This document shows positions 7,853 to 45,291 of a DNA stretch of 45,291 nucleotides, one piece after another. The first letter of the stretch is position 1; every line of letters begins with the position of its first letter. The position numbers and the translations under genes were made by a program. Origin of the DNA: a virus. Location: positions 1 to 45,291 of the IMG/VR virus record IMGVR_UViG_3300009147_000004, one strand, 5' to 3'. The notes under the pieces are model-generated. The model had not been told where the DNA came from and ran no database searches. It saw only the letters and a list, made by a program, of their open reading frames with translations.

Positions 7853-8377
7853 CTAACGGCCTAGCCGGACGACGCTCATCCAGGCGGTTACCTTGAAGCT
7901 CACGCCCGTTGTGGCGTTATCCCAGGTCAAGCAGTGCAGCAGCTCGCCCGCCGTGAACCGGCTGATCATGCTCATCGTGGTGGCCGGTCCGGTCGACGGC
8001 GACGACGTACCTGGACGGCAGTCCCGCATGATGAGGCGTCCGGTCGTGGTCTCGCACAAATAGGCCCGGACGCCTCCGGTGCCAGTGGCGGGATCGGTGA
8101 CGATGACAGCGCTCACCACCCAGATCCCGTCACGAGTGATCTTGATGTCGGCGCCGCCGGGCTGCAACATCGCCAGCGGGTCCTCCAGCACCACGTCCCA
8201 GACGATGTTCTTGGTGTTGCCGTTGGTGGTGTACTGGTTGCAGCTCAACCGGCAGCAGTCCGGGGTCGTGGCGACGGTGGACTCGACGGCTTCGGCGAGA
8301 GCCTTGATGTCGCGTGGTACATCGGGGGTGAACGATTGCTCCGGATAGGGCCAGGCGAATACTGGCGTTGCTCCCAT
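7853..8377 (-). CDS. Displaced tail-fibre/minor tail paralogue
   Basis: 174 aa. It opens MGATPVFAWPYPEQ and continues with a helical ALAEAVESTVA segment, matching the openings of the three proteins encoded at 39024-40754. The remainder (ADIKITRDGIWVVSAVIV, then RFTAGELLHCLTW, ending VVRLGR) has the strand pattern of C1q/TNF-like jelly-roll trimers used for receptor binding. The DNA around its start, 8371-8389, is identical over 19 bases to 40156-40174. Its position between portal and terminase, far from the other fibre genes, is unusual. The extra cysteines near residue 43 are not in the paralogues. Confidence 0.75.
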   Translation of the reverse strand: MGATPVFAWPYPEQSFTPDVPRDIKALAEAVESTVATTPDCCRLSCNQYTTNGNTKNIVWDVVLEDPLAMLQPGGADIKITRDGIWVVSAVIVTDPATGTGGVRAYLCETTTGRLIMRDCRPGTSSPSTGPATTMSMISRFTAGELLHCLTWDNATTGVSFKVTAWMSVVRLGR

Positions 8378-16901: not shown

Positions 16902-17747
16902 TCAGGGGCCTGCGCCAAGGGCATTGAAGGCGTCGGTAGCCAGCTTCCGCATCTCGTCGCCATAGATCGCCTTGGCCGCGAGCTGCTCGAACACGCGGGC
17001 GTACAGAGCAACCTCGTCGGGGTCTCGTACATGGATCTCGGCTGCGATGGTCTCGAAGGTGACGATAACGTCGTCGAAGATCCAGAAGCCGTTGAGGGGA
17101 GCCACGGGAAGCTCGACCGCAAAGGGCAGGACGCCGAGGCGGACGTTGGCCAGGCCCGAGACGACGATGAGCCTGTCGAGTTGTCCCCGCATCACTTCAA
17201 CCGGACACAGCAGAGTCCGAACGACAGCCTCACTCAGGACGAAATGAAACCTCTTCGATGCGTCGTAGATGACCTGTTGACGCCGCATGCGGACATCGAG
17301 TGCGGTCGGGGTGTCGTCCGGGGCGCTGTGGAGCGTTGACATCTCGCCGAGTCGGTAGCGTGCGTACTCTGCCGTCTGTAGAAGGCCGGGAACTACGCAC
17401 GTCTCCAACCCTCGGATGACGCTGGTACGCGATTCGAGCTTGAGGAAGTTGAGCTGCTTCCGTCGAGTGCCCGCGCGCAACTCTCGACGCCAGGTTGCGT
17501 AGTCGGACTCGATGTTCGACAACATCGAGAGCAGGTCGGACACGAGGTCGGGGTGCCCGTCAGTCGCATCGACCCAGGCCGCAACGTCATCCGGCGTCGC
17601 CGTCTGCCGACCGCACTCCACGCGGGAGACCTTCGACTGCGCCCAGCCGAGCCGGACAGCAAGATCTGACCCGGTGATCCTCGCGTTGCGTCGCAACTCG
17701 CGGAGGCGTATTCCGAGTAGCTCACGGTTGCGCTGGAAGTCGGACAA
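16902..17747 (-). CDS. XRE-family regulator with DUF5753 domain
   Basis: 281 aa. Residues about 10-65 are a Cro/CI-type HTH (IRLRELRRNARITGSDLAVR, LGWAQSKVSRVECGRQTATP). The rest is the DUF5753 domain, with the family signature LETCVVPGLLQTAEYARYRL and FVLSEAVVRTLLCPVEVMRG. Such regulators are very common in actinomycetes, usually beside a small partner; here the DUF6879 gene is 9 nt upstream. Start TTG 17747 with GAGG upstream. It is a candidate lysogeny repressor, although host-type regulators of this class also control morphogenesis and toxin-antitoxin-like pairs. Confidence 0.85.
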   Translation of the reverse strand: MSDFQRNRELLGIRLRELRRNARITGSDLAVRLGWAQSKVSRVECGRQTATPDDVAAWVDATDGHPDLVSDLLSMLSNIESDYATWRRELRAGTRRKQLNFLKLESRTSVIRGLETCVVPGLLQTAEYARYRLGEMSTLHSAPDDTPTALDVRMRRQQVIYDASKRFHFVLSEAVVRTLLCPVEVMRGQLDRLIVVSGLANVRLGVLPFAVELPVAPLNGFWIFDDVIVTFETIAAEIHVRDPDEVALYARVFEQLAAKAIYGDEMRKLATDAFNALGAGP

Positions 17748-17756
17748 CTGCGTCCT

Positions 17757-18296
17757 CTACCTCGACGCCGGGTCGATCGGACTCTGGGTCATGTACTGCT
17801 GGTAGGAGATCGCCGTAGCGATGGCCCGTTCACGTGCGTCGATGTGGGCGGCAACCGCTGACGCAGCCGGCACCAGCTCCGCACCCAGGAAGAAGCCGTC
17901 ATCGGTGAATTGCATGATTGCCAGCCGGGCGTCGTCAAAGAGCCAGAAGTCGTAGTCGGGCAGTCCGAGGGTGGCCGCCGTGGAACGGGTCAGGACCCGG
18001 ATGTCTTCCCCAGCCTCAAGATTGGTAGGGGTCACGGCCAGCTCGAACCGCTGGTAGTCCGTGGGCGGCTCGTCCATCACTCTGACGCGTCGCATCGTGC
18101 GGCCCGATGACGTTAGGCTACGTATTCCGGCCAACCAGGGCTCGAACCAACCGAGGTCGTAAGGCTCACCGGCAAGGAACTGCCGAAGGGCGTCGCGTTC
18201 CTCGTCGACCACGTAGTGGCGGCAGGTCTCCAGACGAAACGCGTCTCGGTCAAAGGTCTCGAACAGCCGCGAGAAGTCCTCACCGACGAGCCTCAA
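17757..18296 (-). CDS. DUF6879-family protein
   Basis: 179 aa. Reads MRLVGEDFSRLFETFDRDAF, then RHYVVDEERDALRQFLAGEP, RVRVMDEPPTDYQRFELAVT and LPDYDFWLFDDARLAIMQFT, the standard course of DUF6879. It is found in actinomycetes next to XRE-DUF5753 regulators, where an antitoxin/toxin-like or signal-sensing role has been suggested by context. TTG start at 18296, three bases after the stop of the 66-aa gene. This forms a three-gene leftward operon. Confidence 0.8.
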   Translation of the reverse strand: MRLVGEDFSRLFETFDRDAFRLETCRHYVVDEERDALRQFLAGEPYDLGWFEPWLAGIRSLTSSGRTMRRVRVMDEPPTDYQRFELAVTPTNLEAGEDIRVLTRSTAATLGLPDYDFWLFDDARLAIMQFTDDGFFLGAELVPAASAVAAHIDARERAIATAISYQQYMTQSPIDPASR

Positions 18297-18299
18297 CGG

Positions 18300-18500
18300 T
18301 CACCCCAGGTGGTCGGCAAGCTCGGCCAACAGCGCGGCGGGCACCTCGACCGCCGTCTCGTGGTCCGGGATCGTCATGGCGGACAGAGCTTCTGGGTCCT
18401 CGATTCGCCAACCCTGGATGACGAAGGTGTCCCTGTCGGTCCGGTAGAGCGTTGGGCTCTGGCCGCCATTCGACTCACTACGGATCTTGGTCAGCTTCAC
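18300..18500 (-). CDS. 66-aa partner of the DUF6879/DUF5753 module
   Basis: Contains SPTLYRTDRDTFVIQGWRIE and IPDHETAVEVPAALLAELAD. Small proteins of this form precede DUF6879 genes in many actinomycetes. A clear distant paralogue is encoded divergently at 18729 (CPAVYRAGDGADYIVVGALV, VAVRLPDAVFDAV). GTG start 18500 with RBS AAAGGAG. First gene of the leftward regulatory operon. Confidence 0.7.
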   Translation of the reverse strand: MKLTKIRSESNGGQSPTLYRTDRDTFVIQGWRIEDPEALSAMTIPDHETAVEVPAALLAELADHLG

Positions 18501-26655: not shown

Positions 26656-26908
26656 CGCGCGACCTCCGTACCCGGCGCCGCTTGGGTGGCTGGCCCCGTT
26701 GCGGCAGCACCATCACGTCCGGGGGGTACAGGTCGGCCCGGCGGATGATCACCCAGCCGCCGGCGGCCAGGCAGGTCACAACGAGCTGGGCCAGGGTCTC
26801 CACCGTCACCTCGTCCTCCTCGTGGTCGCTCCACGTTCGACGCGTGCCGTTGCCGAGCTGGGCGCGCAGGCAGCTCGCGATTGCATCGACCACGCCGAGG
26901 TGGGCCAT
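26645..26908 (-). CDS. Small protein with basic tail
   Basis: 87 aa from ATG 26908. GVVDAIASCLRAQLGNGTRR and DEVTVETLAQLVVTCLAAGG are helices, then VIIRRADLYPPDVMVL and an Arg-rich end. Unknown. It is coupled to the upstream gene (TGATG). Confidence 0.5.
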   Translation of the reverse strand: MAHLGVVDAIASCLRAQLGNGTRRTWSDHEEDEVTVETLAQLVVTCLAAGGWVIIRRADLYPPDVMVLPQRGQPPKRRRVRRSRDER

Positions 26909-27171
26909 CAGCTTCGCCCCCGGTATCGGTAGTGCACGCGACCCTGCTCGTCGACCAAGGGCCGATCGCGGTAGGACGCCTGCTCGTAGACCTCGCGCTC
27001 GACGAACGCGGACACCCATCGGGAGACCTCGGGCTCACCGGCGGGCAGAAGTACCACCCGCGGTCCCTGCCGGGTCGGTACGTACAGCCAGCGGGCGTCG
27101 GGCAGCCGCGTCTCCAGGCCGTCATAAGGCCCACCGATCAGCACCGCGACGATGCCGTACGCCTTGGCCAT
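26908..27171 (-). CDS. Small IGGPYDG-type protein
   Basis: 87 aa from ATG 27171 (RBS AGGAGACCTG). IVAVLIGGPYDGLETRLPDA resembles the opening of the 80-aa protein at 37782 (ELLGGPADGAIRDVE); both end in short strands with a Tyr-Arg motif. The family is widespread in actinophages, function unknown. Confidence 0.6.
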   Translation of the reverse strand: MAKAYGIVAVLIGGPYDGLETRLPDARWLYVPTRQGPRVVLLPAGEPEVSRWVSAFVEREVYEQASYRDRPLVDEQGRVHYRYRGRS

Positions 27172-34080: not shown

Positions 34081-35232
34081 TTATCCGGTCCGGCGCCGCT
34101 TCGCCGTGGTGATGTCGACGACGTTGGCCGGCTCGACCAGTTGGCTCAGCCGCTTGGCGATCTCCGCGTCCCGACCGGCGGCGATGTGCTGGTACCGCAT
34201 CGCGGCATCCACAGTGGAGTGTCCGAGGCGGCCCATCAGCTCGGCGAGAGTGGCGCCGGACTGTGCGGCGAGTACCGCGCCGGAGTGCCGCAGGTCGTGG
34301 AAGCGTAGGTCGTCCCGGCCAGCCTTCTCCCGCGCCGGGTAGTAGACCCGGTACAGCGAGGCAGGCAGCATGTGGCAGCCGCCCTGGGTGGGCGAGAACA
34401 ACAGCGACTCCTTCGCCGAGCCGGTGAAGTCCTCCAGGTGTTCTTTCACCGTGGGCAGCAGGTGCGGTGGGATCGCCACGGGGCGCACACCGGCCTCGCT
34501 CTTGGGCGGGCCGATGACGCACTGCCCATCCGGGTGGGTCACTCCGCGGCGGACGTGCAGGACCCCCTTGCGCACGTCCACATCCTTGCGGCGTAGTTCG
34601 GTCAGCTCGCCGAAGCGCAGTTGGCACCACGCGGCGAGCAGCACCATCAACCGGTACTTGCGCGGCACCGACTCGACGATGACGGCTAGCTCGTCGATCG
34701 TGGCGGGCTCGATCTTCACGACCCGCTTGGTGGTCCCGGCGCCCTTGATCCGGCACGGGTTGGCGGTCGGGATCACGTCGTCGTCCACCGCGGTCGCATA
34801 GATCGCCTTCAGCAACCCGTAGGCATGCGCCCGCAACGTCGGCGTGCCCGGAGCCAGCTCGGCGTACCACGCCCGCACCTCGGCCGGGGTGATCACAATG
34901 TCGCGCTCGCCGAACGTGGGCAGGATGTGGTTGTCCAACAGGCTGCGGTAGTCGGAACGGGTGCGCGGGGCCAGCTTCCGCGCCTTCAGCCACGCCGCCG
35001 CGTAGGCGCCGAAGGTCAGCGTCGGGGGCGGGGATGGGTCGATCGGCTTGCCGGTGATGTGCTCGGCCTGGCGCACCGCCAGCCATGCCTCCGCATCCGC
35101 GACAGTCAGGAACGTGGTTGGCGCGGCCGTGCGGGTGCGCTCCGGGCCGGTGATGTAGCTGGCCTGGTAGCGACCCGAGGGGAGCTTGCGGACCGCGCCG
35201 AACGAACGGCGTTGCGGACGGCGGGTGGCCAT
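34081..35232 (-). CDS. int: Tyrosine integrase
   Basis: 383 aa from ATG 35232 (RBS GAAGGAGATC); the frame is open further up without an RBS. N-terminal arm-binding region (RRSFGAVRKLPSGRYQASYI), SAM-like core-binding domain (about 70-155, TFGAYAAAWLKARK, LLDNHILPTFGERDI), and catalytic domain with R206 (LRFGELTELR), K244 (GPPKSEAGVR), H312 and R315 (FHDLRHSGA), H338 (LGHSTVDAA) and nucleophile Y347 (MRYQH). All catalytic residues are present. attP lies directly upstream. Confidence 0.93.
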   Translation of the reverse strand: MATRRPQRRSFGAVRKLPSGRYQASYITGPERTRTAAPTTFLTVADAEAWLAVRQAEHITGKPIDPSPPPTLTFGAYAAAWLKARKLAPRTRSDYRSLLDNHILPTFGERDIVITPAEVRAWYAELAPGTPTLRAHAYGLLKAIYATAVDDDVIPTANPCRIKGAGTTKRVVKIEPATIDELAVIVESVPRKYRLMVLLAAWCQLRFGELTELRRKDVDVRKGVLHVRRGVTHPDGQCVIGPPKSEAGVRPVAIPPHLLPTVKEHLEDFTGSAKESLLFSPTQGGCHMLPASLYRVYYPAREKAGRDDLRFHDLRHSGAVLAAQSGATLAELMGRLGHSTVDAAMRYQHIAAGRDAEIAKRLSQLVEPANVVDITTAKRRRTG

Positions 35233-35259
35233 GGGCGAGGGATCTCCTTCGATGGGGCT

Positions 35260-35281
35260 CCGTGCGACAACGTGCAACAGG
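35260..35281. repeat. Arm-type repeat pair, left
   Basis: Two CGTGCRACA units about 11 bp apart, the second reading CGTGCAACAGG. The same pair recurs at 35470-35491. Helically phased pairs on either side of the core suit integrase arm-binding sites. Confidence 0.6.
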
Positions 35282-35304
35282 GGATGGTACTTCCTGTCCC
35301 TCCG

Positions 35305-35318
35305 TGACACTAGTGTCA
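35305..35318. promoter_or_regulatory. Perfect palindrome TGACACTAGTGTCA upstream of integrase
   Basis: A 14-bp perfect palindrome. Its left end on the minus strand completes TTGACA (35319-35314), a consensus -35 for the integrase gene. It is a probable operator; TGTCA half-sites also occur upstream of the HTH-ATPase gene near 36980. Confidence 0.55.
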
Positions 35319-35393
35319 ACATGGAAGACGATCAATATACGCAGGTACCCCGACGTTTCCGCAGGTAGCTATCGCCTAGGAGATGATCTCGTT

Positions 35394-35707: not shown

Positions 35708-36958
35708 TTAAGGCTGGTAAACGACGGCCATATCCACAAATCGCGAGAGGTGGAGCTGAGCGGCGACGATCACGATATCTGTTGGCCCATCCCGGTGTCT
35801 CGCCACGATCAAATCCGCCTCCCCTGCTCGTGGTGACTCAACATCGTAGTAGTCGTCCCTATGAACGAAGATGACAACGTCAGCGTCATCATCCATTCCC
35901 TTGAGGTCTTCAAGTTCCGGCACCTTCGGATGGAACGTTCCTTTGTTATCCAACCCGTGTTGGACGCCACTAACTAGGACGACGGGGATTCGAAGCTCAA
36001 GCGCCAGCAACTTAAAGAACCGAGATATGTCACGCTCTGTTGGTCGGTTATTCGGGCTCTCGCCCTGTTCCATTAGCTGCTGCACGCTATCAACGATGAG
36101 CAGTTGAATGCCGTGCTCTCGCGACGCTTCACGAGCTTCCGTAGCAACAGTGTCCATGCTCGGCGCATAGTCGTCGTTGATGAATAAGGGTGCCTCATTG
36201 ATCTCGCCCATTCGTCGGGCCAGCTTCGTCCAATCATCGTCAGACAGACGAGCCGCACGAAGCACGTGTAGGGGGATACGCGCCTCAGCCGAAAAGATTC
36301 GTACGAGAATCTCATTCTTCGTTGCACGAGTAGAAATGAACAAAGTCGGTAGCGTTTGTCTAATGGCAGCATTACGGCCGATACCGAGCGCTAGCATCGA
36401 TTTTCCAATGGCCGGTCGGCCAGCAATGATGATTAACTGCCCTGGTTCAAGCCCATTCAACAGACGGTCCAAATCAACGTGTCCGGTCAAAATCGGTTCA
36501 GATGAGCCGACTCCAACTCGCTCCAACTTATCTACGAATCCAAGAAGCAAATCACCTAGTATCTCAGTCTTTGGGTCCCGGCTATCCCGCCCATGTGGGG
36601 CCGAGTCGATAACCAAATTGTCGGACGCTGGTGGCGTTCCATCCGTCGGTTTTGATATTTCCAGTTCTTGGGTAATTCCGCGTTTCGCGTCACGCGCGTC
36701 AATCCAAAGGTTTCGAAACTCCTCGACGTCGCCGCCTAGCTGCTCCACGACTAGCTCCAACTGACCCCAGGTGGGGAGCGTTGCGCAGCGCAAGACGTTG
36801 TGCACAGTCGTGTGGCTAATCGCACGACCGGTACGTCCCGAGATCACCCGCGTGCTGGGCTCCCCGTTGTGAACATGAAGGCGTTCGATCTTGTGCCTCA
36901 GCACTTCGAGCGCATCGTCTTCGGCCCGATGGGCCGGCATCGAGGAATCCTCTGTCAT
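35708..36958 (-). CDS. HTH-DnaB-like ATPase fusion protein
   Basis: 416 aa. Residues about 33-90 are an actinomycete-type HTH (VISGRTGRAISHTTVHNVLR, LPTWGQLELVVEQLGGDVEE). After a linker, residues 158-410 follow the DnaB C-terminal RecA fold: GHVDLDRLLNGLEPGQ, Walker A AGRPAIGKS (179-187), Walker B LLIVDSVQQL (287-296), LELRIPVVLVSG, DDADVVIFVHRDDYYD, and ARHRDGPTDIVIVAA. The DnaB N-terminal domain is missing. GC content and third-position bias are clearly lower than in neighbours, suggesting recent acquisition. It may regulate lysogeny, defend the host, or load on the origin. Confidence 0.82.
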   Translation of the reverse strand: MTEDSSMPAHRAEDDALEVLRHKIERLHVHNGEPSTRVISGRTGRAISHTTVHNVLRCATLPTWGQLELVVEQLGGDVEEFRNLWIDARDAKRGITQELEISKPTDGTPPASDNLVIDSAPHGRDSRDPKTEILGDLLLGFVDKLERVGVGSSEPILTGHVDLDRLLNGLEPGQLIIIAGRPAIGKSMLALGIGRNAAIRQTLPTLFISTRATKNEILVRIFSAEARIPLHVLRAARLSDDDWTKLARRMGEINEAPLFINDDYAPSMDTVATEAREASREHGIQLLIVDSVQQLMEQGESPNNRPTERDISRFFKLLALELRIPVVLVSGVQHGLDNKGTFHPKVPELEDLKGMDDDADVVIFVHRDDYYDVESPRAGEADLIVARHRDGPTDIVIVAAQLHLSRFVDMAVVYQP

Positions 36959-37781: not shown

Positions 37782-38024
37782 ATGGCTGTGGTCGAAGTCG
37801 AGCTGCTTGGTGGTCCAGCGGATGGGGCGATTCGCGATGTCGAGACCGGGACGGATGGTTGTCCGCCACCACTGCTGACCCTGCGCCAGAACGGCGCGTA
37901 CATCGGCGCCAGCACCGAGGCCGAGCCCGGCCGGGAGCACGTCTACGTGCGGGAGCCGAGCGGGTACGAGGTCGGTCCGGCTTGGACGTACCGGTATGCA
38001 CAAGGGACCGGAGCGCTGCAATGA
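37782..38024 (+). CDS. LLGGPADG-type small protein, partner of the Ntn hydrolase
   Basis: 80 aa, VVEVELLGGPADGAIRDVET, then LTLRQNGAYIGASTEAEPGR and GPAWTYRYAQGTG. A small beta-rich family often seen in actinophages, related to the 87-aa protein at 26908. No RBS is seen, and a -10-like TACCCT lies 7 nt upstream, so translation may be leaderless. Its stop overlaps the Ntn-hydrolase start (ATGA), so the two are translationally coupled. Confidence 0.6.
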   Translation: MAVVEVELLGGPADGAIRDVETGTDGCPPPLLTLRQNGAYIGASTEAEPGREHVYVREPSGYEVGPAWTYRYAQGTGALQ

Positions 38025-38893
38025 CGATGATCATTTGCGCAGTTGCGGTCGATCAGGTTGTTATGGTGTCCGACCGCAGGGCTACCAATCCAACTAAAAT
38101 CGGCTCCGAGATCGAGAATAAGGCGGTGGTTCTGAACAACCAGTGGGTTCTCGGCTATACCGGCTTAGTAGATATCGAAGGAACCCCAACTGATCGGTGG
38201 GTCGTTGAGGCTCTCGCTGGGGTGGCGCCGGAGGACTATTTCAGGACTCTTGCCGCCCGCGCAACGAACGCGCTTATGGGAGTCGATAGGAAGGACCGAC
38301 GCCAAGCTTTTCTCGTTGCGGGTTGGCTAACACCACCAGAAGGGGCACGTCCGATCGCCGTTGAGATCGCGAACTTCAACTACGACGACCAGGGTCGGCC
38401 AACGGCGGCCGGGGATCGGCTCACTATTAGGAAGCTCAACACGCCGCCGGAGGAGGTCTCAGTTTTTTCAGCCGGTCGCCGCCTCAGACGTGCGGAGAAA
38501 TCCAGCGTGGAGACAACCCTGCGGGAGATCAGTCGCACCTCCGCTCATCCTCTTGATATCGCAGCGGTTCTCGGCGATCGGATACGGGACCGGGCCAGGT
38601 CGGACAGGGGTGTGGGAAGTAATCTCATGGTGGTCAGCATTCCCAAGGTTGCGGTTGGTCGTCCTCTCAGTTGGGTGTCCCAGCGTGAGGCGTGGCGCCA
38701 AGAAATCTGCGCCGCCTATGTTGGCGTCGATGACGACTGTTTTCAATACATGCCCGCATTGGTGCTACCAGGCGTGGCCTTTTCCGACGCCTGGATGTCG
38801 TCCGACCCGACGAGTTATCCCCTGGGTCCGCTAGAGAGAAGGCCACTACCACTGCGCGACGGTGGCATACCTCCACGACCCGGTGGCGCATAG
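38021..38893 (+). CDS. Putative proteasome-type Ntn-hydrolase peptidase
   Basis: 290 aa from ATG 38021 (RBS GGAG). The second residue is Thr, so Met removal would expose an N-terminal Thr. Numbering that as 1: Thr1 (TMIICAVAVDQVVMVSDRRA), Asp17 in SDRR, Lys33 in ENKAVV and Gly47 in GYTG fall exactly at the proteasome/HslV positions. Further on, VFSAGRR could be the Ser129 region, and SDRGVGSNLMVVSI mimics the D166-x2-S169-G170 segment with Val replacing Ser. An insertion of about 30 residues near 105-135 and a long C-terminal tail are extra. No AAA unfoldase lies beside it. Lower-GC codon use than structural genes. Confidence 0.7.
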   Translation: MTMIICAVAVDQVVMVSDRRATNPTKIGSEIENKAVVLNNQWVLGYTGLVDIEGTPTDRWVVEALAGVAPEDYFRTLAARATNALMGVDRKDRRQAFLVAGWLTPPEGARPIAVEIANFNYDDQGRPTAAGDRLTIRKLNTPPEEVSVFSAGRRLRRAEKSSVETTLREISRTSAHPLDIAAVLGDRIRDRARSDRGVGSNLMVVSIPKVAVGRPLSWVSQREAWRQEICAAYVGVDDDCFQYMPALVLPGVAFSDAWMSSDPTSYPLGPLERRPLPLRDGGIPPRPGGA

Positions 38894-39023: not shown

Positions 39024-39593
39024 TCAGGTCCACGATCCCCAGCAGTGCAGGATCGTCAAGTGGGCCTGGTAGGCGGCGGCGACGTTGAGCGCGAGCGGGG
39101 CTCCAGACGACTGCCACACGCGGAGGTCGATGGTGTCGGCCGGGTTGAGGAAGACGATCCGGGCAGGCGTGTTGTGCACGATGGGGTGGACCTGGCTGGC
39201 CAGCGGCGCCGGGCTTCCGGACTGGCCGATCGAGTTGCCGGCGTGGAAGATGCCGGCGATGCGCTCGCCGGGCTCGCCGCCCACGGTGGCCCAGCTCGCT
39301 CCGCCGGCCACGAGGTAGTACCCGGCTGGCCGGGGTGAGCCCAGGGTGTTGACCTCCACGGTGTCCATCGGGATCGGCGTCCAGGCGCTGTTGGCAGTGC
39401 TCAGCGCCGCGACGCGTCGGGCGAAGTACACGTGTCGGTTGTTCCATCGGGTCCGTTGGGCGGTGATCTCGGTCTCGATGGCCTGAAGGCTGGCCTCCAC
39501 CGCCAGGGCGAGCTGTTCGAGGTTGTGCGACATGTCGGCCGGGTCGCCGCGCACCGGGTACGGCCAGGCGAAGTTGGGCGTGGTCGCGGTCAT
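39024..39593 (-). CDS. Tail-fibre/minor tail protein, copy 3
   Basis: 189 aa. It opens MTATTPNFAWPYP, then a helix (LEQLALAVEASLQAIETEIT), then a jelly-roll-like domain (GYYLVAGGASWATVGGEPGE, then PADTIDLRVWQSSGAPL) ending with strand AAYQAHLTILHCW. It is the last recognised gene of the late operon. Start overlaps the stop of copy 2 (ATGA). It is probably a trimeric receptor-binding tip. A further 28-codon frame (39033-38947) overlaps its end, without clear support. Confidence 0.75.
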   Translation of the reverse strand: MTATTPNFAWPYPVRGDPADMSHNLEQLALAVEASLQAIETEITAQRTRWNNRHVYFARRVAALSTANSAWTPIPMDTVEVNTLGSPRPAGYYLVAGGASWATVGGEPGERIAGIFHAGNSIGQSGSPAPLASQVHPIVHNTPARIVFLNPADTIDLRVWQSSGAPLALNVAAAYQAHLTILHCWGSWT

Positions 39594-40162
39594 GGCCTTG
39601 GTCCGTAGATGTAGAGGGCGAGCAACCGGGGGCAGTTGTCCACTGCGGTGTCGCTGCTCAGCGCCACGCCCGAGTCCTGCCACCCGGCGATGTCGAGAGT
39701 GTCGGCGGGCACGAGGTAGATGCCGGTGTCCTGGTTGGGCACACGGATCGCAAACGTCCCGTTGGCCTTGGTGTTGTGGTTCGTGCACGGCAGGTTGAGC
39801 GTCGATGCGTTCTTCCGGTAGACGACCTGCCGGCCGCCGGTCGCATTGCCGCTGAAGGCCACCACGCCGGAGCACAGCCACCAGCCCTCGGGTTTGGCCG
39901 TCCACGGACCAGGGAGCTTGCTGTGCTCGGTGGTGTCCATCGTGATCGGCGTGGTGGCGTTGTGCGGCAGGCTCTGCACAGCACGCCGGGTCTGTTGCAG
40001 GAACCGCATGTCCCGACCCTGCGTGCTGGCCGCGACAGTGAAGTTCTGGAGCTGTTTGACAGTGGCGTCCATGGCCAGCGCCAGGTTCTTGACGACCGTG
40101 GAGCCGTCCGCCGCGTCGGTGTACTCCGGCCATGGCCAGGCGAACAAAGGGGTGACTCCCAT
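39590..40162 (-). CDS. Tail-fibre/minor tail protein, copy 2
   Basis: 190 aa. MGVTPLFAWPWPEYTD, helix (VVKNLALAMDATVKQLQNFT), then GWWLCSGVVAFSGNATGGRQ and YLVPADTLDIAGWQDSGVAL, with strand CPRLLALYIYG at the end. Same plan as copies 1 and 3. The sequence around its start is identical over 19 bases to that of the displaced copy at 8377, including the RBS AGGAGTGTCCAC. Confidence 0.78.
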   Translation of the reverse strand: MGVTPLFAWPWPEYTDAADGSTVVKNLALAMDATVKQLQNFTVAASTQGRDMRFLQQTRRAVQSLPHNATTPITMDTTEHSKLPGPWTAKPEGWWLCSGVVAFSGNATGGRQVVYRKNASTLNLPCTNHNTKANGTFAIRVPNQDTGIYLVPADTLDIAGWQDSGVALSSDTAVDNCPRLLALYIYGPRP

Positions 40163-40172
40163 GTGGACACTC

Positions 40173-40754
40173 CTAGGGCGGAAAGCCTGACGGCAGTGGG
40201 CCGGCGACGTGGATGATCGTCAGGTGCGCCTGATCGGCGGTCGGCGCGGAACGGATCTGGAGCGGTCCGCCGCTGTTCTGGAACACGCTGACGGTCACCG
40301 TGTCGGACGGGATGAGGGTGACCAGCAGCATCCGGCCCTTGCACATCGTGATGTAGGAGGCGGTGGCAAGTGGTGGCGGATCACTGGCCCCGCATGGGTG
40401 GGCGACGCCGTTGATGCGCAACGTGGATGCCCGGAAGCCTGCCGCGTTGGGGTCGAAGCCGACTCCCCAGGTGACCAGGTACCAGGCGGTCGGCCGTACC
40501 GGGCCGAGCGTGTTGACATCGGTGGTGTCGAACGGAACCACTGTGTCGACCGCGTTGTTGACGCTGAACACGGCGTTGCGCCGCTGTTTGAGCATCGGCC
40601 GGTTGAGCATCAGGTACTCGACATCTTCGGCGTTGGTCCAGATCCGGGCGACCTCGGTCTCCACCGCGCGAGCCAGGGTCTCCAGGGCGAACGGGCCGTC
40701 CGCGGCGTCGGGTGGCTCGGGGAAGGGGAAGCCGTAGACCGGTGTCGTGCCCAT
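40173..40754 (-). CDS. Tail-fibre/minor tail protein, copy 1
   Basis: 193 aa. MGTTPVYGFPFPEPPDAADG, helix (ALETLARAVETEVARIWTNA), then VRPTAWYLVTWGVGFDPNAA and LIPSDTVTVSVFQNSGGPL, ending ADQAHLTIIHVAGPLPS. It is the first of three consecutive paralogues. RBS GAGGTGAGCC. Like the others it should form a trimer through the helix and expose a C-terminal binding domain. Confidence 0.78.
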   Translation of the reverse strand: MGTTPVYGFPFPEPPDAADGPFALETLARAVETEVARIWTNAEDVEYLMLNRPMLKQRRNAVFSVNNAVDTVVPFDTTDVNTLGPVRPTAWYLVTWGVGFDPNAAGFRASTLRINGVAHPCGASDPPPLATASYITMCKGRMLLVTLIPSDTVTVSVFQNSGGPLQIRSAPTADQAHLTIIHVAGPLPSGFPP

Positions 40755-43717: not shown

Positions 43718-45291
43718 CAGGTGAACCTCCGTCCGGCCATCAACTCGCGAGCGGCAACGTCACCGAGGAAGTCGGTCTCGACCCGCACCAGGTCACGCAG
43801 CTCCTTGTCGCCGATGAAGACCTTGACCAGGGCCGTCAGCGCGCCGGTGGCCGTCATCTGCCCAGCCAGATCGCCGCGCGGCATCGTGGGCACGGTGACC
43901 ATGCGCTGCACCGCGGAAGACACCAGCGGTGTGTCCTTGGCGATGCCCTGCGCCATGCCGCGTGGTAGCTCCCGGCCGATCGCGGCGAACACCTTGGACG
44001 GTGAGCCGATGCCGAGCATGTCGCGTACGGGGCCGGGAATCTTGTTGATCAGAGCGCGTACCCTGTCGGTGACCTTCCACCACATCGACTGGATGCCGTT
44101 GACCAGACCGTTCACAATGGACTGTCCGACGCCGTAGAGCAGATTGCCGAGATTGCCCAGCGAGCGCAGGATGGCCTTCGGGATTCCCGAGAAGAACGCA
44201 ACGAGCCCGTTCCAGGCCGACTTGGCGACGCTGACGATCTTGTTCCAGGCGCCACTGAACTGGGTCTGGATCGCGCCGAGGAAGGCGAACCACAGTCCTT
44301 TGAGGAGATTGGCCGTAGCCTGCCACCCGCCGGTGATCGTCTTCATCGCGCCGAAGAAGATGTTCTTGATCCCGGTCCAGGCTTTCGACCAGTCGCCGGT
44401 CAGGATGCCGGTCAGTACCTGGAAGATGCCTTGGATGATCTGGAACGCACCCTGGAGGATCTTGAGCACGCCTTTGAGCGCGCCCTCGATCGAGGACATG
44501 ATCTGCTTGCCGAAGCGGTTCCAGATCCCCGTGGCGATCCGGTCGATGTAGCTGAACCAGAACGCGATGCCGTTGGCCGCGTTGCGTACCACCGCCGCGA
44601 CGAACTCGAAGACGGACTTGAACAGCGCGCCGAGCTGGGTCAGTACCGGCTGCGCCTCTATCCACAGTCGACGGAACATCGGCACGAAGTGCTGTTGGAA
44701 GATGGCGACCCACTTCGACACGATCGGCGAGACGACGGCCCAGAGTTGGGTGAAGGACTTGCGGATGTCGGCGGTCGCCGCAACGGCGCCGTCGCGGACC
44801 TGGGTGAGCAGGTCCCGTACACCCGTGGGCATGTTCGCCGGGCTGAGCCCGGTCTTCAGCGCCTCCCCGGCCTTGGCAACCTCGGCCCGGAACTGCTGGA
44901 TCTTTGGGTTGTTGGCCACCCAGTCCTTGATGCCGGCGGTGAGTTTGTCGATCATTTCCTGCCAGCGCACCGTGGCGACGATCGCGAACTCCATGACCGC
45001 GGTGACGGCCTTGATCGCGCCGACCAGCCGGTCACCGAGGATCGTGATCAGCTTGGCGATCTCGTCCGGGTGCCGGCCCAGCATCCGGAAGAAGTCGCCG
45101 ATCGCCACGCCGATCTTCGACAGCACCGGGAACAGGGCTTGCAGCGAGGACTTCATCGCCGGTAGGGCACCGACCATGCCGGAGAGGATCTGGTTGGTCA
45201 GCGACACCAGCGCCTCGGTCAACGGCACGACGAGCTTGGCCATCTCGCCGAAGACCGGGCGCAGTGTCTTGGCCCACCGGACGGTGGCCTC
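43717..45291 (-). CDS. Tail tape measure protein, C-terminal part (starts at 663)
   Basis: This is codons 222-705 plus the 123-bp terminal duplication. The frame runs to the window edge and continues at base 123 on the other end of the circle. It contains alternating helical and hydrophobic stretches rich in Trp/Phe (FWFSYIDRIATGIWNRFGKQ, GALKGVLKILQGAFQIIQGI) and a GPVRDMLGIGSPSKVFAAIG segment near the C terminus that is typical for actinophage tape measures. No lytic domain is visible. 704 aa in total is on the short side for actinophage siphoviruses. Confidence 0.9.
   Translation of the reverse strand, partial: EATVRWAKTLRPVFGEMAKLVVPLTEALVSLTNQILSGMVGALPAMKSSLQALFPVLSKIGVAIGDFFRMLGRHPDEIAKLITILGDRLVGAIKAVTAVMEFAIVATVRWQEMIDKLTAGIKDWVANNPKIQQFRAEVAKAGEALKTGLSPANMPTGVRDLLTQVRDGAVAATADIRKSFTQLWAVVSPIVSKWVAIFQQHFVPMFRRLWIEAQPVLTQLGALFKSVFEFVAAVVRNAANGIAFWFSYIDRIATGIWNRFGKQIMSSIEGALKGVLKILQGAFQIIQGIFQVLTGILTGDWSKAWTGIKNIFFGAMKTITGGWQATANLLKGLWFAFLGAIQTQFSGAWNKIVSVAKSAWNGLVAFFSGIPKAILRSLGNLGNLLYGVGQSIVNGLVNGIQSMWWKVTDRVRALINKIPGPVRDMLGIGSPSKVFAAIGRELPRGMAQGIAKDTPLVSSAVQRMVTVPTMPRGDLAGQMTATGALTALVKVFIGDKELRDLVRVETDFLGDVAARELMAGRRFT
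45169..45291. repeat. Terminal direct repeat identical to 1-123
   Basis: All 123 bases match positions 1-123. The repeat lies inside one continuous coding frame, and removing one copy restores the tape-measure gene, so it marks assembly closure of a circular or circularly permuted molecule. Confidence 0.95.

Follow-up and report, generated by a model that had tools for sequence, protein, structure and literature searches.

The 45,291-base stretch of viral DNA analysed here (the window) contains a gene for a 290-residue protein that is almost certainly proteasome-like in fold and family, as judged from structure models. It would be a single-chain Ntn hydrolase of the proteasome-like branch, and a temperate phage of actinobacteria would carry its gene as cargo. 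The kind of protein is not new, because 22 orphan proteasome-like subfamilies, some of them phage-borne, were described in 2021 by Fuchs, Alva and Lupas; these share the same four active-site residues, lack a propeptide and occur without AAA+ partners, and no informative genomic context was reported for them (PMC8665760). For this known but uncharacterised kind of protein, the analysis adds a setting as cargo and a connection to a lysogenic transcript that can be tested. Taken as a whole, the reading of the protein as a lysogeny-expressed accessory threonine hydrolase, plausibly acting in defence against superinfection, may be right or wrong with about equal probability.

The window carries an identical direct repeat of 123 bp at its two ends (positions 1-123 and 45169-45291), and the tape measure gene is interrupted by this repeat. 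The terminal repeat indicates that the genome is probably circularly permuted and complete, as a circular assembly would give. Genes for terminase, portal, capsid, tail tube, tape measure and integrase are all present, and the phage is a temperate siphovirus of actinobacteria. Pfam also identified one DUF5753 and one DUF6879 protein, probably encoded within 16902-18500 (minus strand); both are regulator-type families, which suggests a filamentous actinomycete host. Four further proteins with like N-termini (TPxFAWPxPE-like) are encoded at 39024-40754 and 7853-8377 (both minus strand) and flank the structural region. These look like duplicated small tail proteins, and the PHROGs search placed three window proteins in a single virion structural family, phrog_13989.

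Table 1. Coordinates of the Ntn hydrolase gene, its predicted functional elements and its neighbours in the window.
Feature	Position	Strand	Basis or remark
Integrase	34081-35322	-	
80-aa GGPADG protein	37782..38024	+	Upstream of the Ntn gene, overlapping it by ATGA
Proteasome-like Ntn hydrolase, 290 aa	38021..38893	+	ORF and translation, homologues, AlphaFold2 fold, PDB matches
Thr1 codon (ACG), next to the start codon	38024..38026	+	Predicted nucleophile; T in 14/14 homologues
Asp17 codon	38072..38074	+	D in 14/14 homologues
Lys33 codon	38120..38122	+	K in 14/14; paired by hhalign with the PrcB lysine region
Gly47 codon, putative oxyanion-hole glycine within GYTG	38162..38164	+	G in 14/14
SDRGVG segment, putative equivalent of the D166-G170 turn	38600..38617	+	hhalign against PrcB, 14-member alignment
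C-terminal extension, about 78 residues past the Ntn core	38657..38890	+	AlphaFold2 segment 213-290, pLDDT <50
Tail genes	from 39024 onward	-	Convergent with the Ntn gene

The Ntn gene is flanked by the integrase and the tail genes (Table 1), which confirms the original prediction that it lies outside the structural and replication modules. Its G+C content is 0.593, compared with 0.66-0.70 in the integrase and tail genes on either side, and the difference is greater at third codon positions (just 0.62 as against about 0.9). Because of this low G+C, especially at third positions, a codon-usage gene caller trained on the window phage missed the gene; the open reading frame is taken as real because it is conserved among homologues. 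The low G+C and deviant codon usage further indicate that the gene is acquired cargo. A consensus promoter scan upstream of it revealed no sigma-70-type promoter. The original prediction also held that no unfoldase is encoded nearby. Indeed, a Pfam scan of 40 window proteins yielded no AAA+ unfoldase, and the sole ATPases among them were of the RecA/DnaB/KaiC type or terminase. The cargo stretch between the integrase and the Ntn gene also contains a gene (35708-36958, minus strand) of very low G+C for this phage (0.548), whose 416-residue product has a DnaB_C (RecA-type ATPase) domain, preceded by a region that resembles a helix-turn-helix at the N-terminus.

The open reading frame starts ATG-ACG, and its 290-residue translation begins with the Met-Thr pair that had been noted originally (MTMIICAVAVDQVVMVSDRRATNPTKIGSEIENKAVVLNNQWVLGYTGL). 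The mature protein is predicted to start at Thr2, numbered here as Thr1. Counted from this threonine, residues 2, 18, 19, 20, 34 and 48 of the translation are T1, D17, R18, R19, K33 and G47. The placement of T1, D17, K33 and G47 at the proteasome positions, as originally proposed, was upheld, and a survey of homologues for conservation of the Thr, Asp and Lys found that each of these residues, and also the glycine, is invariant in 14/14 aligned sequences. The aligned proteins are encoded by phages of Gordonia, by actinobacterial genomes and by a mycobacterial plasmid, and most of them are about 21-30% identical to the window protein. The D17-K33 spacing is exact in the window protein, and some relatives carry insertions there. 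Invariance across 14 such divergent homologues rules out a chance match to the motif, and the retention of catalytic residues in highly divergent members suggests selection for activity. From its residues, the window protein is likely to be catalytically competent. The further claim that SDRGVG mimics the D166...G170 segment stands in part: its V-G falls on the S169-G170 turn when aligned to PrcB with hhalign, but, by eye, the last glycine is serine in 4/14 homologues and the aspartate four residues earlier is kept in a minority.

An AlphaFold2 model of the window protein was built on an alignment of eight sequences. The mean pLDDT was 60.5, with the core better defined, and residues 213-290 scored below 50 and were not confidently folded. 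The order of strands and helices in the model is like that of a proteasome beta subunit, and the beta core (S1-S10 and two helix pairs) is present in both the predicted topology and the matching PDB structures. Foldseek comparison with the PDB returned 619 chains at E<=1e-3, and all among the matches listed were proteasome or Anbu subunits. Using VIA-align, the model gave Z 13.6 against Anbu (184 residues, 4.2 A) and Z 13.3 against the Mycobacterium tuberculosis beta subunit; in the superpositions model residue 2 (Thr) coincides with the catalytic threonine of the Anbu and M. tuberculosis beta chains, which is numbered 1 or 301. A relative for which closer homologues were available (locus L013) was modelled better (pLDDT 70.6, pTM 0.76) and matched Anbu with Z 18.1. 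Anbu, which assembles in helical or split-ring form, is thus the closest solved fold for both proteins; sequence identity to it is about 12-15%. HslV, BPH and connectase were absent among the matches listed (50 per model), which has no bearing on kinship. Alignment of the family profile with twelve actinobacterial PrcB-type sequences by hhalign covered 177 columns, placed Thr on Thr and gave E 1.9e-4, with an HHalign probability of 48%. The structure-prediction check that had been suggested therefore returned a proteasome/Anbu-type Ntn fold for two members of the family.

At the level of sequence models the protein is a distant relative of the proteasome family: it matched Pfam PF00227 with 12.2 bits against a curated cut-off of 22.4 (E 0.14), and NCBIfam, PADLOC, Pfam and PHROGs contained no model fitting the family. 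The curated PADLOC defence models gave no match for three family members. Searching the PDB with the window protein by phmmer returned nothing relevant; the only match, Rab11, was judged spurious. Scans of viral and genome contigs for close relatives, with the window protein as sole query, gave no match. By tblastn, Gordonia phage proteins aligned weakly from residue 1 (E 0.1) and a protein from a Mycobacterium marseillense plasmid aligned with E 4e-5; profile searches seeded from these matches then recovered Nymphadora gp30, loci in Mycolicibacter and Mycobacterium, and more actinobacterial genomes. The phage relatives CarolAnn gp36, Ruthy gp33 and Nymphadora gp30 are annotated as hypothetical proteins. 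They share the catalytic residues, a similar size and the position between tail and integrase genes, and differ in being about 21-30% identical to the window protein.

The label 'orphan proteasome homologue' is correct. The label 'HslV-type', in contrast, does not hold, there being no HslU and no propeptide, and the PHROG 'peptidase HslV family' is matched no better than by chance (E 0.46). PrcB and HslV share the catalytic residues and the fold with the present family, which differs from them in having no propeptide and no alpha-subunit or HslU partner gene, and in its C-terminal extension and mobile-element distribution. In the window the threonine directly follows the start methionine and an alpha subunit gene is absent among the local genes; identity with HslV or with a 20S beta subunit was excluded on these grounds, namely no propeptide and no partner genes. 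By architecture and host range, and judged from its published description, the subfamily that the window protein would best fit is DAH (Distant Actinobacterial proteasome Homolog). The shared features are Thr1-Asp17-Lys33 with Gly47, the proteasome beta core, the missing propeptide, an extra C-terminal region (here about 78 residues), occurrence in Actinobacteria and phages, and no known AAA+ partner. PPH, of about 140 residues and without helix H2, was rejected, as the window protein has 290 residues and helices 57-65 and 70-85 at the H1 and H2 positions.

The original prediction coupled the Ntn gene to a small upstream gene. The two genes do overlap by ATGA, but the 80-residue product is not a conserved partner: a survey of this neighbour found that the Gordonia phages carry an unrelated small upstream gene (phrog_6153 type). 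The 80-aa gene was rejected as a functional partner, since its best relatives are elsewhere in mycobacteriophages and a second GGPxDG protein is encoded far off in the window. The two small proteins with the GGPxDG motif (26908-27171, minus strand, and 37782-38024, plus strand) both have relatives in mycobacteriophages. Across lineages, no conserved partner gene was found.

Homologues were carried by 5/396 genomes of a phylum sample, 7/399 of an order sample and 3/301 of a family sample (about 1-2%), frequencies that are lower bounds because few candidates were scored per genome. Their settings (plasmid, prophage, integrase-linked and conjugative-type) are mostly mobile elements. As in the window, the homologue lies between the tail genes and the integrase region in the Gordonia phages Ruthy, CarolAnn and Nymphadora, and in Mycobacterium marseillense it is borne by a mobilizable plasmid. 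In most of the loci measured the G+C of the homologue is below that of its surroundings, an island in Mycolicibacter engbaekii (L012) being an exception. The N-terminal parts of the homologues on this island (L012:8001-8630) and on the M. marseillense plasmid (L005:1381-2268) are closely similar (tree distance about 0.2), which is a sign of recent horizontal transfer. The L012 island has an integrase, and upstream of its homologue are GmrSD_N, a UvrD-type helicase and a methylase-like gene. Elsewhere, a SIR2-domain protein adjoins the homologue in a probable prophage (L013), ArdC-like protein and SSB genes are directly upstream (L029), a TIR protein is encoded downstream on the same element (L034), a lone integrase lies beside it (L035), primase-polymerase and resolvase genes flank it (L036), or a Type IIG enzyme is located about 4 kb away (L037). 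This association with defence genes is a descriptive listing; mobile elements carry such genes anyway. Broken copies were also observed: L006, L012 and L076 carry a frameshift or a stop, L035 is split and L038 is truncated. These may reflect frequent decay in lysogens or errors in draft assemblies. For this lineage, then, a recurrent location in temperate phages and an association with mobile elements are established, and CarolAnn gene 36 connects it with a transcript already published for a lysogen, whereas the 22 subfamilies were described without a functional clue from context (PMC8665760).

RNA sequencing of a CarolAnn lysogen by Montgomery et al. showed that genes 34-36, the last of which is the homologue, are transcribed, somewhat below genes 38 and 39, and that genes 43-45 are likewise transcribed (PMC6426606). 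Genes 43 and 44 protect against phages of cluster CZ and some others, and the lysogen restricts phages including Huffy, Vendetta, Woes, Monty, Wizard, Utz, Blueberry and UmaThurman by something besides 43/44; this remaining defence is predicted by the authors to come from variable genes in the centre of the CarolAnn genome (PMC6426606). Gene 36 is one of several candidates, genes 38 and 39 being more strongly expressed and equally good. CarolAnn gp43/gp44 and the lambda RexAB exclusion system resemble the Ntn family in that their genes are expressed from a prophage and belong to the same accessory region in the centre of a temperate phage genome; they are unrelated in sequence and were shown to defend, whereas for the Ntn family defence is a proposal. 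The literature searched contained no plating experiments with family members. Because the CarolAnn homologue is transcribed in a lysogen with partly unassigned defence phenotypes, the role of the family is now testable, and since the CarolAnn host, Gordonia terrae 3612, is a laboratory strain with a phage panel, this can be done with existing strains.

Threonine at position 2 permits removal of the initial methionine by methionine aminopeptidase. In the proposed mechanism the host enzyme would strip this residue and so expose Thr1, which Lys33 and Asp17 would activate, with Gly47 providing the oxyanion hole. Without an unfoldase, the enzyme may cleave a specific peptide or amide bond in a few accessible substrates, or catalyse a transfer as connectase does. 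The prophage-borne gene would be transcribed in the lysogen, to the benefit of the lysogen; by analogy with CarolAnn, cargo expressed in lysogeny is on balance the probable status of the window gene. The most plausible benefit would be that rival phages, or mobile elements of other kinds, are interfered with. Of the roles originally suggested, one in defence or anti-defence thus draws backing from genomic context and from the published transcription of the CarolAnn homologue, and we infer, with somewhat less than even confidence, that the window protein defends against other mobile elements. If so, proteolysis or ligation by a threonine nucleophile would join the immune chemistries of prophages. 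The broader proposal, that the family consists of lysogeny-expressed factors in prophage immunity or inter-element conflict that cleave or ligate a specific invader or host protein, is tentative and rather doubtful; if true, it would assign the first biological role to this orphan branch of proteasome homologues.

Other explanations were weighed against defence by the lysogen. That the protein is not an Ntn hydrolase at all, its residue spacing having arisen by chance, is exceedingly improbable: the subthreshold PF00227 match and the phmmer result would agree with it, but it is contradicted by the invariant residues, by AlphaFold2 models of two different members and by the profile alignment to PrcB. 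If the protein were a catalytically inactive structural homologue or a relic that the phage can spare, the several broken copies could be accounted for; given the invariance of the catalytic residues across highly divergent members, and given that some breaks may be assembly errors, this too seems improbable. A modulator or decoy, a phage subunit that would associate with the host 20S proteasome or poison it, had been among the original suggestions and would fit both the resemblance of the active-site strand SDRRAT to GDRRAT of PrcB and the presence of PF00227 proteasome genes in 11/11 homologue-carrying genomes tested, compared with 131/296 in the phylum sample. This co-occurrence lends the idea weak support, however, as it comes from few independent carriers and both lineage and genome size confound it. 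Moreover, some members lack the SDRR part of the motif, and the protein is about 15-17% identical to PrcB, has no propeptide and has a C-terminal extension, so that a decoy is hardly probable.

The homologue directly after ArdC-like anti-restriction and SSB genes in L029 would fit a different role, in anti-defence or establishment, with the protein produced soon after entry and cleaving a host defence or regulatory protein on behalf of the phage or plasmid. ArdC-like and SSB genes occur in this combination in plasmid leading regions. The phage copies, in contrast, are located where the tail operon ends, are oriented opposite to it and lie away from the early genes, and expression of the CarolAnn homologue was seen in an established lysogen (PMC6426606); an early role of this kind is therefore unlikely. 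A part in the regulation of lysogeny, by processing of the phage repressor, antirepressor or excisionase or by setting the balance between lysis and lysogeny, would suit the proximity to the integrase and the location of the CarolAnn copy in the genome centre with integration and immunity genes. It is less easily reconciled with homologues on plasmids and on elements with different regulators, or with the finding that the homologue loci share no conserved regulatory neighbour, and we likewise consider it unlikely.

The family need not share a single role, given that its distant chromosomal relatives L019:1501-3297 and L020:1501-3216 are longer proteins that combine the M-T...D17...K...G core with HAF-type or TPR repeats in one chain; no defence context was noted at these two loci. 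Proteasome-like proteins of another type were also observed in actinobacterial genomes (L062 in G002 and L063 in G027), of which L063 starts M-T-L and has D17 and GYTG.
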